From assembly GCA_023266575.1 (NCBI GenBank), contig JAHFPV010000001.1:1-64000 (forward strand): a DNA stretch of 64,000 nt. The letters are read 5' to 3'. Position numbers and translations under genes: made by a program. Below the pieces are notes generated by a model. That model made no database searches, was not told where the DNA came from, and was given only the letters and a program-made list of their open reading frames with translations. Origin of the DNA: Sphingobium sp. GTDB taxonomy: Bacteria > Pseudomonadota > Alphaproteobacteria > Sphingomonadales > Sphingomonadaceae. This document shows, piece after piece, positions 22,908 to 51,495 of this stretch; positions within the stretch are counted from its first letter, which is position 1, and each line of letters opens with the position of its first letter.

Positions 22908-23315
22908 ATGTTTGGTATCGATTCGACCGAATTCCTGCTGATCGTCATCGTTGCGGTGATCGTGATTGGCCCGAAGGATTTGCCGCGCGCACTCTATAAG
23001 GTGGGGCAGATCGTCGGCAAGGCGCAGGGCATGGCGCGCCATTTCCGCACCGGGCTGGACGCCATGGTGCGCGAGGTCGAGCTGGAGGAGCTGGAAAAGA
23101 AGTGGGCCGCGCAGAATAAGCGGATCATGGACGAGCATCCGCCGGAGATTGCCGCGCCTGCGATGGAGGCGCTGCCCTCGCCGGAAGCTGAGGCCGCGCC
23201 CGACGGGCCGCCGCCTTTTGTGGCGCAGTCGGCACCCGTGGCGTCGGCCAATGATGCGCCGCCCTATCTGGCCGGGGAAGCGGCGGCTGACGGCAAGAGC
23301 GGGTCGGCGGCATGA
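22908..23315 (+). CDS. tatB: Sec-independent translocase subunit TatB
   Basis: This 135-aa protein starts with MFGIDSTEFLLIVIVAVIVIG, the typical TatB membrane helix with an early Glu, then the GPKDLPRAL hinge and amphipathic helix. It has a longer Ala/Pro-rich acidic tail than TatA. TatB forms the twin-arginine signal receptor with TatC. It overlaps tatC by 4 bases. Confidence 0.94.
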   Translation: MFGIDSTEFLLIVIVAVIVIGPKDLPRALYKVGQIVGKAQGMARHFRTGLDAMVREVELEELEKKWAAQNKRIMDEHPPEIAAPAMEALPSPEAEAAPDGPPPFVAQSAPVASANDAPPYLAGEAAADGKSGSAA

Positions 23316-24091
23316 TCGGTGATATTGACGAGAGCAAGGCGCCTTTGCTCGACCACCTGATCGAATTGCGCGGACGGTTGTTGAAATGCGTCTATGCGCT
23401 GGTGCTGACTGGCGCGATCTGTTTCTATTTTTCCGCCGAATTGTTCGCGATCCTGGTCCATCCGCTCAAGGAAGCCTTTGGCGATGGCGGCGGCAAGCTG
23501 GTCTATACCAAGCTGTACGAGGCCTTTTTCGTGCAGGTGAAGATCGCCTTTTTCGGGGCTTTCTGCTTGTCCTTCCCGATCATTGCCAACCAGCTATGGG
23601 CGTTCGTCGCGCCGGGCCTTTATGCCAAGGAAAAAAAGGCGCTGCTGCCCTTCATATTGGCGACGCCCTTCCTGTTCGGTCTGGGCGCGAGCCTGGCCTA
23701 TTTCGTGGTGATGCCGACCGCCTTCCACTTCTTTCTGGAGTTTCAGGGCAATAGCAGCGGCCTGCAGGTCGAGGCCTTGCCGAGCGCGGACGCCTATCTG
23801 GGGCTGGTAATGCAGTTCATCCTGGCGTTTGGGATCAGTTTCCTGATGCCGGTGCTGCTGATGCTGCTCAACCGGGCCGGGTTCGTCAGCCGGGCGCAGC
23901 TGATTGGTCTGCGCCGTTACATGATCGTGGCGGCGTTCATCGTCGCGGCGGTGCTGACCCCGCCCGATGTCGTGTCGCAGCTGATGCTCGCGATTCCGCT
24001 GCTGCTGCTCTATGAGATCACGATCGTCGCGATCTGGTTCACCGACCGGCGGCAGGCGAAGATGCAGGAAGCCGAAGAAGCGTCCGCCTGA
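23312..24091 (+). CDS. tatC: Sec-independent translocase subunit TatC
   Basis: This 259-aa protein has six transmembrane helices. Family marks are the N-terminal HLIELRGRLLKC, the first periplasmic-loop region LYAKEKKALLPF (with the F..PGLY..E pattern) and the LTPPDVVSQLMLAIPL stretch in the last helices. TatC recognises twin-arginine signals. A terminator hairpin lies directly after the stop. Confidence 0.96.
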   Translation: MIGDIDESKAPLLDHLIELRGRLLKCVYALVLTGAICFYFSAELFAILVHPLKEAFGDGGGKLVYTKLYEAFFVQVKIAFFGAFCLSFPIIANQLWAFVAPGLYAKEKKALLPFILATPFLFGLGASLAYFVVMPTAFHFFLEFQGNSSGLQVEALPSADAYLGLVMQFILAFGISFLMPVLLMLLNRAGFVSRAQLIGLRRYMIVAAFIVAAVLTPPDVVSQLMLAIPLLLLYEITIVAIWFTDRRQAKMQEAEEASA

Positions 24092-24095
24092 AACA

Positions 24096-24127
24096 AAAAG
24101 CGGCCCGCCTTTTTGAGGGACGGGCCG
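24096..24127 (-). terminator. Terminator of the entericidin-like gene (possibly bidirectional)
   Basis: CGGCCCG (24101-24107) pairs with CGGGCCG (24121-24127) over a 13-base loop. Read on the minus strand it is followed by CTTTTTGTTT. It is 4 bases past the tatC stop and 38 bases past the entericidin stop. The loop itself carries five Ts on the plus strand, so tatC transcripts may end here too. Confidence 0.75.
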
Positions 24128-24164
24128 ATGCTTGGGAGTCGGGTAATCGTAAAGCAGACGGCGA

Positions 24165-24293
24165 TCAGTCCGCCGCCTTCTCCACGGCCTGGCCAGCGCT
24201 CTGCACGTCGCGGCCTGCGCCTTCGACAGTGTTGCAGGCGGCGACCATCAGCGAGCCGGTGAGCAGCAGGGCTGCGAGAATCTTTTTCGTCAT
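24165..24293 (-). CDS. Entericidin A/B-like small lipoprotein
   Basis: This 42-aa lipoprotein has a signal peptide MTKKILAALLLTGSLMVAAC with the lipobox Cys at 20, then NTVEGAGRDVQSAGQAVEKAAD, the entericidin pattern. Such peptides sit in the cell envelope; EcnB in E. coli is stress-induced and membrane-active. The ATG at 24293 follows AAGGAG with 8-base spacing. The longer frame to 24488 is not credible. An EcfG-like promoter about 60 bases upstream suggests general stress control. Confidence 0.88.
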   Translation of the reverse strand: MTKKILAALLLTGSLMVAACNTVEGAGRDVQSAGQAVEKAAD

Positions 24294-24355
24294 CGAAACT
24301 CTCCTTGAGAAACGTGCGACCGCATGGGGTGAGCCATACCAGTGACGGGATACAG

Positions 24356-24380
24356 AACCCGCCGCTAGCCCAAGCGTTCC
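24356..24380 (-). promoter_or_regulatory. EcfG-like promoter of the entericidin-like gene
   Basis: On the minus strand, GGAAC (24380-24376) and GGTT (24359-24356) are 16 bases apart, close to the EcfG consensus GGAAC - 16/17 - (C/G)GTT. The -10 element ends 62 bases before the start codon. The motif is seen; sigma-factor use is inferred. Confidence 0.5.
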
Positions 24381-24421
24381 GACCGCGAAAAATTTAATGA
24401 TGTCAAGAAGAAAAACGCCCC

Positions 24422-24520
24422 AAAAAATCTGAGCCCGGAACGCGTCGGGGGGGGGAGGCGTTCCGGGCTCATATTGTGTGGATAGCAAGAGCGGGGGGCA
24501 AAAGATTTGCTATCCGAAAT
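24422..24520 (-). ncRNA. Candidate small RNA with C-rich loops (GsrN-like)
   Basis: On the minus strand a transcript starting near 24517-24520 would begin with a 9-bp hairpin (GGATAGCAA at 24515-24507 with TTGCTATCC at 24488-24480). Its 18-base loop contains six consecutive Cs. A 9-base linker follows, then a perfect 13-bp hairpin (GAGCCCGGAACGC with GCGTTCCGGGCTC, 24470-24431). Its loop carries nine Cs in a row, and AGATTTTTTG follows, a strong intrinsic terminator. The total is about 95-100 nt. C-rich single-stranded loops are the target-binding parts of alphaproteobacterial trans-acting RNAs such as Caulobacter GsrN. No coding frame explains the structure. The identity is inference from structure and promoter. 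Confidence 0.55.
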
Positions 24521-24524
24521 AGAG

Positions 24525-24550
24525 AACCCACAATATCGCCATCCGGTTCC
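24525..24550 (-). promoter_or_regulatory. EcfG-like promoter of the candidate small RNA
   Basis: On the minus strand, GGAAC (24550-24546) and GGTT (24528-24525) are separated by exactly 17 bases. This puts the expected start point at 24517-24520, immediately before the first hairpin of the candidate RNA. It has the same GGAAC...GGTTC form as the promoter at 24356-24380. Confidence 0.5.
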
Positions 24551-24560
24551 CGTAAACGCC

Positions 24561-24622
24561 CAAAAAAATGCATTTTTAATCCCCCGCGATTCCAGATATT
24601 TGGCTGGTATCGCGGGGGTTAA
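24561..24622 (-). terminator. Terminator of the cell-wall hydrolase gene
   Basis: The stem AATCCCCCGCGAT (24578-24590) pairs with ATCGCGGGGGTT (24609-24620) over an 18-base loop. On the minus strand it is followed by AAAAATGC and a run of seven Ts (24568-24562). It lies about 20 bases past the stop of the minus-strand hydrolase gene. Confidence 0.75.
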
Positions 24623-24640
24623 CCGCAAAAAAGTTGAGGA

Positions 24641-25591
24641 TCAGACGATCGGGCGGCCGCTGTTGCGATATTCCGGGCGGATGGTGGATTCCGGCAGATT
24701 GTCGTCGCGATTGGCGGGGGCCGGGCGCGTGACGGGCGCGGTCCAGCCGGTCGATGGCAGGGTGGGCGCAGCGCTGCCGAACGGGGCGACGAACGCCCCG
24801 ACCGGGGCAACCGGTTTGGCGGGCCAGACGCGGCGCGCCGGGCCGGATATCGTTTCGCGCCCCAGATAGGCGGCGCGGAAGGCGGCGGGGGTGCCGTTGA
24901 AGCCAGGGTTGCGGTAGAAGATATGCGCGCCGATGACGGCGACGGGCTGGAGGCTGGACGACCAGTTGGGGCGCACCGCCAGCGTATGATAATGGGTAGC
25001 GAGGCCTACGGGGGCATAGACGCGGCCCGCCAGCGCATCCTCCGCCACCCGGCGCGCGCGCACCCATTGGGTAGCGGCGGGCAGGCGCGCCATCGCGCCG
25101 TCGCAGCTGAAGGTGAACTGGCATTTATAGTCGGTGCGTTCCGACCCTTCATAGACCACGCCGCACACTGTGTTGGGCCAGAGCTGGCTGCGCACGCGGT
25201 TGAGGACCACTTGCGCCACGGCGCGCTGGCCATCGTCCGGCTCGTTCCCGGCTTCATAATAGATGGCCGATGTCAGGCAGTTGAGCGCGCGATAGCTGTC
25301 GAGGCCGGTGATGCCGCGAAACACGGCAGCGGGCGCGGCTTTCACTTCCTCCAGCCCCATGACATGCTCGCTCTGGACGGTCAGCGCGCCGGGAACTGGA
25401 TCGAAAGCGCCCTCTGCGAAGAAGAAGGCGGAGCCGGGGAAGTTGGCGGCGGCTTCCTCCGCCGGGTCGTCCTGGGCGTGATTGCCGTCGAGCATGTCGA
25501 GCGGGGCGGCGGTGATGAAGCGCGGCGCGACGAGCGCGGCGAGGACAAGCGCGATGATGCCGCTACGTCCTTTCCATCCGATCGCCTGCAT
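24641..25591 (-). CDS. Cell wall hydrolase, SleB family
   Basis: This 316-aa exported protein has a hydrophobic signal region (about 10-29). A SleB/hydrolase_2 domain lies in the middle (about 105-215), including SAIYYEAGNEPDDGQRAVAQ with the catalytic Glu in YYEA, and VLNRV. A Pro-rich C-terminus without a recognised domain follows. SleB enzymes are lytic transglycosylases on peptidoglycan; in non-sporulating alphaproteobacteria they probably remodel the wall. The gene is transcribed toward the candidate small RNA, and its own terminator separates the two. Confidence 0.87.
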   Translation of the reverse strand: MQAIGWKGRSGIIALVLAALVAPRFITAAPLDMLDGNHAQDDPAEEAAANFPGSAFFFAEGAFDPVPGALTVQSEHVMGLEEVKAAPAAVFRGITGLDSYRALNCLTSAIYYEAGNEPDDGQRAVAQVVLNRVRSQLWPNTVCGVVYEGSERTDYKCQFTFSCDGAMARLPAATQWVRARRVAEDALAGRVYAPVGLATHYHTLAVRPNWSSSLQPVAVIGAHIFYRNPGFNGTPAAFRAAYLGRETISGPARRVWPAKPVAPVGAFVAPFGSAAPTLPSTGWTAPVTRPAPANRDDNLPESTIRPEYRNSGRPIV

Positions 25592-51232: not shown

Positions 51233-51296
51233 CGCGCCGGTGCGTTTGACGCAATGCAACACATGTCTCCGGCGCTGAGGATTCGGCACCGGGCAC

Positions 51297-51495
51297 GATG
51301 CGGGAGAGCATGGGCGGTCTTTCAGGCCAGGCCCGTCGCCGAAGGAGCAACCGCCCCGGAATCTCTCAGGCCAAAGGACCGCATCGCGCGCAGACACTCT
51401 GGAAAGCGGACGGGGAAACCTGTCCCACCGAAGGGGTAAGCCGTTTCCTGCACCAGGACGGTCAAAGCTCTCAGGTTCCCGTGACAGAGGGGGTG
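51297..51495 (+). promoter_or_regulatory. Tandem glycine riboswitch
   Basis: Two consecutive glycine aptamers. The first (about 51297-51386) runs from ATGCGGGAGAG to GGACCGCAT with the core CCGAAGGAGCAA and ATCTCTCAGGCCAAAGGACC. The second (about 51391-51495) runs from ACACTCTGGAAAG to CAGAGGGGG with CCGAAGGGGTAAG and AAGCTCTCAGGTTCCCGTGA. The pair precedes gcvT by 68 bp and should turn on glycine cleavage when glycine is high. Confidence 0.95.

Follow-up and report, generated by a model that had tools for sequence, protein, structure and literature searches.

A candidate small RNA gene of the general stress response, with two C-rich hairpin loops, in Sphingobium and other Sphingomonadaceae

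In this Sphingobium genome, the space between a cell-wall hydrolase gene and an entericidin-family gene holds two hairpins with C-rich loops behind what looks like a stress promoter. This raises the question of whether these elements make up a small RNA gene and, if so, how that RNA would act and to which known RNA it would be related. The original prediction saw in it a sphingomonad counterpart of GsrN, the small RNA of Caulobacter crescentus. The window that was analysed, by which we mean the whole stretch of 64,000 nucleotides, and its relatives indicate that the locus is almost certainly a real RNA gene. Its product is probably a trans-acting small RNA of the general stress response, controlled by EcfG and pairing through its loops with G-rich mRNA. 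The features of the locus are as follows.

24525–24550, minus strand: EcfG-type promoter, read directly, with a -35 element GGAAC (24550–24546) and a -10 element GGTT (24528–24525)
24422–24520, minus strand: small RNA gene, with a predicted transcript of about 97–99 nt whose presumed start near 24520 is placed by its distance from the promoter
24480–24515, minus strand: hairpin 1, 9 bp with an 18-nt loop (24506–24489) holding six Cs (24498–24493), the proposed main pairing site
24431–24470, minus strand: hairpin 2, 13 bp with a 14-nt loop holding nine Cs (24455–24447), the terminator stem and a possible second pairing site
24422–24427, minus strand: run of six Ts, read directly, which completes the shape of an intrinsic terminator
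24580–24619, minus strand: hairpin 3' of the cell-wall hydrolase gene, read directly, its role presumed
24356–24380, minus strand: EcfG-type promoter of the entericidin gene, GGAAC-N17-GTT
24165–24293, minus strand: entericidin-family gene (Pfam PF08085, E 5.7e-10)
23312–24091, plus strand: tatC (Pfam PF00902), the convergent neighbour
24641–25591, minus strand: cell-wall hydrolase gene (Pfam PF07486), the upstream neighbour

The layout that had been described for this place is exact in every count: GGAAC and GGTT stand 17 bases apart on the minus strand, a 9-bp hairpin with six loop Cs is followed by a 13-bp hairpin with nine, and six Ts close the series. The stem of hairpin 1 is formed by GGATAGCAA (24515–24507) and TTGCTATCC (24488–24480), a 9-nt linker separates it from hairpin 2, and the perfect 13-bp stem of the latter consists of GAGCCCGGAACGC (24470–24458) and GCGTTCCGGGCTC (24443–24431). 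The predicted fold of 24520–24424 has an energy of -42.2 kcal/mol, compared with -18.25 ± 2.68 for 200 shuffled sequences (z -8.94), none of which folded as well. The place is intergenic, with the hydrolase gene ending at 24641 and the entericidin gene starting at 24293, both on the minus strand, and the view that nothing coding explains the hairpins holds up. A coding reading of the small frame from an ATG before hairpin 2 was rejected, as its start is missing in two of 35 relatives and variation in loop length shifts the frame. The adjoining entericidin-like gene does carry an EcfG-like box of its own, as had been proposed. On the other side, the hairpin at 24580–24619 is probably the terminator of the hydrolase gene, and if it ends that transcript the RNA gene would be a separate unit. 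No sigma-70-like site was found in 24000–24800.

Conservation within the genus is extensive. When 61 genomes were searched at the DNA level, 34 of the 36 other Sphingobium genomes (all but G028 and G034) proved to carry a strong copy, as did the own genome (E 2.2e-7 or better), and the 24 genomes of other families gave no match better than E 0.06. Among 35 aligned same-genus copies, 8 of 22 pairs are changed on both sides while 99.7% of cells pair, and none of 500 shuffles, which take no account of relatedness, equalled the genus set in double-changed pairs, in double-changed cells or in covariation score; in further pair types, 349 of the 500 shuffles had as many. The core of loop 1, UUUGCCCCCCGC, is invariant across these copies and its C run measures six in all 35, whereas the C run of loop 2 ranges from 5 to 11. 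A nearly fixed loop on freely varying stems is the pattern of a base-pairing RNA. The 35 copies also share a T-rich tail, which varies in length and interruption. The promoter is kept in place as well, since GTT lies at a constant distance from hairpin 1 in 33 of 33 Sphingobium copies printed, with GGAACC 17 or 18 bases before it, and the box is also present in L034 and L035, the copies that diverge most. The original prediction had made itself depend on conservation of the hairpins and of the GGAAC element among relatives, and both are conserved. One observation counts against this reading of the locus: the promoter spacer is one base longer in 27 of the 33 Sphingobium copies than in most of the family.

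Beyond the genus, a covariance model built from the Sphingobium set matched 148 of 397 family genomes, and a second model built from 56 family sequences matched 171 of the 397, in 47 of 96 genera (E 0.01 and own genome included in both cases); some weak matches are among both counts, and other matches are missed because of the search filters. Drawn from the whole order, 296 genomes gave 80 with a match to the first model, every one of them a member of Sphingomonadaceae. In the family alignment 14 of 17 consensus pairs are double-changed (6 of 8 in hairpin 1 and 8 of 9 in hairpin 2), with 77 double-change cells against 17.5 in shuffles that ignore relatedness and at most 5 pairs and 19 cells in slid versions of the alignment. 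This alignment was built from sequence alone. Its members had been detected with a structure model, which biases the set towards paired stems, and the diversity of the compensated pairs carries more weight than pairing itself. The C run of loop 1 measures 6–8 in 55 of the 56 members of the family set. This set (alignment A3) was formed from 58 family hits by leaving out L078, L080, L068 and a second copy, L094, and by adding two Sphingobium copies. The first three score 40–42 bits, have no promoter box even with a relaxed pattern and are probably false hits. L094 is a second copy of the RNA gene in genome G284; its stems differ, but it shares the 22-base stretch of loop 1 and has an EcfG-type box too.

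The distribution of the gene is patchy, with no match at E 0.01 in 226 of the 397 family genomes, Sphingobium-group genomes among them. A search of 18 non-carrier genomes for a hidden copy at tatC gave no match to the model at E values up to 1, and the EcfG-type boxes downstream of tatC in these genomes have no C run behind them. NepR is present in all 18 of these non-carriers, which indicates that the RNA is not indispensable to the stress system. Two weak class-wide hits in other alphaproteobacterial families (L102 and L103) have two hairpins with C loops and no GGAAC in the upstream bases printed. Their genomes, one of which is 83% complete, gave no NepR match, and the two are possibly convergent.

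The EcfG consensus is given as GGAAC-N16-CGTT with a flexible -10 element (PMC7083833), from which the own copy deviates in having GGTT and N17. Within the window, GGAAC-N16/17-GTT occurs 4 times against 1.77 expected, with at least 4 in 11 of 100 shuffles, and the own box (18 bases from GGAAC to GTT) falls outside this pattern. This frequency by itself is unremarkable, and the weight of the promoter rests on its conservation in place. In 52 of the 58 family hits GGAAC-N15-19-GTT is found within 60 bases upstream, as opposed to 141 of 16582 control windows from the same loci (0.85%), and of the six hits lacking the strict box three have one under a relaxed pattern, the other three being weak and probably false. 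A separate search with a 24–25-base pattern of loop and 3' stem yielded at least 119 loci, and because this pattern excluded the promoter, the box test on the listed loci is independent of it. The box stands upstream in 117 of the 119 matches listed, and the other two have ATT at -10. Over 118 listed loci, the footprint shows GGAAC and CGTT conserved, with a spacer close to background level between them and sequence rich in A/T upstream. The genera named among the matches listed are Sphingobium, Sphingomonas, Sphingomicrobium, Sphingosinicella, Allosphingosinicella, Stakelama, Parasphingopyxis and Rhizorhapis, the rest being titled less exactly. Judged from these sequences, it is very likely that EcfG drives the candidate RNA.

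The neighbourhood of the RNA gene links it to the stress regulators. Among the 119 matches listed, tatC is convergent in 92 (95 have at least 1500 bases downstream), an entericidin gene follows on the same strand in 83 (105 have at least 800 bases downstream), and a cell-wall hydrolase gene lies upstream in 23 (101 have at least 1500 bases upstream). Pfam identifies the genes that precede the RNA gene in Sphingomonas leidyi and Stakelama pacifica as a divergent phyR and a histidine kinase of the HWE/HisKA_2 type, with nepR identified between the two in Stakelama. This gene order matches that of the S. melonis phyR locus, which is described as having the kinase-like PhyT, formerly PhyP (PMC5898713), and the upstream kinases are presumably PhyT orthologs. 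Of 99 listed loci with enough room, 70 have a gene resembling the Stakelama kinase (PhyT-like) whose end is no more than 600 bp upstream of the RNA gene, and 17 of the 29 listed loci that do not are titled Sphingobium; phyR occupies its expected position in 57 of 72 listed loci. NepR is located 1.5–2.9 kb upstream of the RNA gene in 21 of 39 carrier genomes, on the same strand in 20 of these 21, two of the matches (G081 and G131) being below the Pfam cut-off. Split by genus, the carriers with NepR within 3 kb upstream number 21 of 28 outside Sphingobium and none of 11 within it. The Sphingobium carriers have it more than 1 Mb away (5 of 11) or on another contig (6 of 11, including the genome of the window), and the remaining seven carriers of other genera have it on another contig (five) or 509 kb away (one) or, in G063, whose RNA hit is doubtful, give no match. 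The linkage to the stress locus was probably ancestral and would have been broken in the Sphingobium line.

A mechanism that fits these features can be proposed. Stress would free the sigma factor EcfG from NepR, RNA polymerase with EcfG would transcribe about 97 nt up to the terminator at hairpin 2, and the RNA would fold into two stable hairpins that present their C-rich loops. Loop 1 (UUUUGCCCCCCGCU) would then pair with G-rich stretches in the leaders or ribosome-binding regions of several mRNAs, and this pairing would alter how these mRNAs are translated or how stable they are. A looser second contact may be provided by loop 2 (CUCCCCCCCCCGAC), which is complementary to ribosome-binding sequences of the GGGAG type. 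Action through loop pairing appears likely. The C runs of the loops are mostly unpaired in predicted ensembles (means 0.88–0.97, lowest single member 0.5), that of loop 1 having a mean of 0.88–0.89 and a lowest value of 0.5, and GsrN, as described, is a proven precedent for pairing through a 5' C-rich loop (PMC5869019). What the DNA itself shows is a gene whose fold is under selection and whose loop 1 is nearly fixed, with an EcfG-type promoter in front of it and, in many relatives, linkage to the stress locus; we infer transcription, EcfG dependence, pairing with mRNA, the direction of regulation and the targets. In the sphingomonad stress response, the gene may represent an RNA arm.

Searches for mRNA partners brought up no convincing target, though they provided a lead. 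In the own genome, loop-1 complements with at most one mismatch number 39 versus 25 for the reversed control, the 39 including the RNA gene itself (1) and a repeated sequence (3). Three contigs of this genome (L232, L234 and L237) have one sequence in common, located some 100 bases in from the contig start, which may mark the boundary of a mobile element. Across 41 genomes, a 12-base loop-1 complement lying 10–40 bases ahead of an ATG was found in 32 rows, of which 14 are the opposite strand of the RNA gene. This leaves 18 rows, two pairs of them overlapping, where the reversed pattern gave 6; no conserved target emerged among the 18, a single leader being seen more than once, in two genomes. 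The best loop-1 complement, 12 bases long, lies 44 bases before the ATG of a gene for a TonB-dependent receptor, in its leader (L233:1500–1545). It was met again only in G014 and is to be taken as a lead, not as a result. Long loop-1 complements were set aside as targets, as their excess over the reversed control is modest and they are not conserved between species. A KatG-family (PF00141) match is absent in 5 of 15 RNA-carrying Sphingobium genomes, the own genome among them. Where katG is present, the longest uninterrupted complement to loop 1 in its leaders is 7 bases, and these leaders have no G-rich site in common; since GsrN itself pairs through 7 bases, the katG leaders of relatives alone would not decide the matter. 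With no PF00141 match in the own genome and no shared site in the leaders of its relatives, katG was rejected as the target.

How the candidate RNA relates to known RNAs can be judged by comparison with GsrN, whose 5' loop is reported to pair seven nucleotides, four Cs included, with the katG leader, raising KatG (PMC5869019). According to that account, GsrN shares with the candidate an EcfG-family promoter and a short RNA in which the exposed 5' C-rich loop is the most conserved part. GsrN homologs are also typically found beside stress regulators, as is the candidate in three quarters (21/28) of its carriers of other genera, and the position of the candidate away from the stress locus in Sphingobium has a likeness in C. 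crescentus, where gsrN is likewise exceptional (PMC5869019). Unlike GsrN, the candidate has two C-rich hairpin loops, the first nearly fixed across the family, and its own genome has no KatG-family match. Outside Caulobacteraceae, the same paper uses stress-locus position as one criterion, proposing GsrN-like RNAs of Rhizobiaceae from position, EcfG promoter site and expression and of two further bacteria from position and promoter alone (PMC5869019). The candidate resembles the Rhizobiaceae RNAs in its EcfG site and position, although Rhizobiaceae are another bacterial family and are likened here by description only. Homology aside, its position and promoter mean that it would count as GsrN-like in many sphingomonad genera. 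The two further bacteria we take to be Bradyrhizobiaceae. The GsrN-like label of the original prediction is borne out in part, by the EcfG-type promoter, the C-rich loops and, in many carriers outside Sphingobium, the proximity of nepR, whereas the missing KatG-family matches and the katG leaders that share no G-rich site speak against full equivalence with GsrN. Whether the candidate is GsrN by descent, as an ortholog that diverged from the Caulobacteraceae RNA while keeping its place at the stress locus, is a separate matter and seems doubtful. Promoter, conserved 5' C-rich loop and, in 21 of the 28 carriers outside Sphingobium, stress-locus position match the description of GsrN and its putative relatives, yet a similar layout can arise independently, the own genome lacks a KatG-family match, and the class-wide search with the second model matched 4 of 385 genomes, 2 of them in Sphingomonadaceae. 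As published, BLASTn homologs of GsrN are confined to Caulobacteraceae, and the outgroup Erythrobacter litoralis is noted as having no apparent gsrN-like gene (PMC5869019).

Other readings fare less well. At the gathering threshold, Rfam gave nothing at the RNA locus in the window and no match in ten family loci, and the best match of any score was ar14 (RF02344), with E 0.016 on 701 bases. The alpha-r14/NfeR1 RNAs of this family are described as having three hairpins, each carrying the same CCUCCUCCC motif, and a promoter of the sigma-70 type (PMC10746234), and C-rich single-stranded motifs presented by hairpins and able to pair with ribosome-binding regions, which are typical of that family, are also seen in the candidate. 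It is nevertheless unlikely that the latter is a general anti-Shine-Dalgarno RNA of this kind, silencing by covering ribosome-binding sites and merely placed under a stress promoter, as the match reaches 24.8 bits against a gathering score of 58.8, the loops number two and not three, the promoter is EcfG-type and not sigma-70, and the own copy lacks CCUCCUCCC, its invariant loop core being GCCCCCCGC and not CCUCC. Because entericidin so often follows on the same strand, the hairpins might belong to a 5' leader or attenuator of its mRNA and not to a free RNA, and a strict GGAAC-N15-19-GTT box is found in between in only 20 of the 83 listed loci (0 of 83 on the opposite strand). This is very improbable, however, given that the hairpin-2 terminator intervenes and that, in the listed loci, GGAAC lies between the RNA gene and entericidin in 81 of 83 versus 10 of 83 on the opposite strand and GGAAC together with a wider -10 ([CG][GA]TT) in 74 of 83 versus 2 of 83; the leader reading was rejected on the ground that entericidin has its own GGAAC-type box. 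The least credible reading takes the place for a repeat element or a palindrome in the DNA, or hairpin 2 for two EcfG promoters that face each other. The stem and loop of that hairpin (24431–24470) do read GGAAC-N17-CGTT on both strands, but four of 35 relatives, with GGAATG/CATTCC, keep the stem and lose the box, loop length varies, and the covariation contradicts such a reading. A repeat element was discarded, as the RNA gene has a single place in the own genome, the second match being the opposite strand of that palindromic place.

A bolder version of the preferred reading, that of an EcfG-controlled RNA pairing through its loops, can be put forward tentatively. The candidate could be a core ancestral RNA of the sphingomonad general stress response, encoded beside phyR-nepR-phyT and arisen independently of GsrN, with two loops that follow different rules and perhaps with feedback on the mRNAs of stress regulators or outer-membrane receptors. 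In such a case, the nearly fixed loop of six or seven Cs would serve specific targets and the length-variable C loop would serve ribosome-binding sites, and the combination of EcfG with a C-loop RNA would be a module that evolved more than once. The finding also matters for how control of the GsrN type is to be understood, as a single inherited system or as a solution that arose repeatedly. Sphingomonads are soil, leaf and pollutant-degrading bacteria whose EcfG response has so far been described mainly through proteins, and an RNA gene close to nepR in 21 of the 28 carriers outside Sphingobium is a concrete candidate for a post-transcriptional arm. Among the open-licence PMC papers listed, no description of a sphingomonad stress RNA of this kind was found, and a word search of the main text of the S. 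melonis and Sphingopyxis EcfG regulon papers returned neither 'sRNA' nor 'small RNA' nor 'GsrN'. Elsewhere in the window, a glycine riboswitch aptamer (RF00504, 65.3 bits) is located at 51291–51391 on the plus strand and is the only Rfam match of the window at threshold.
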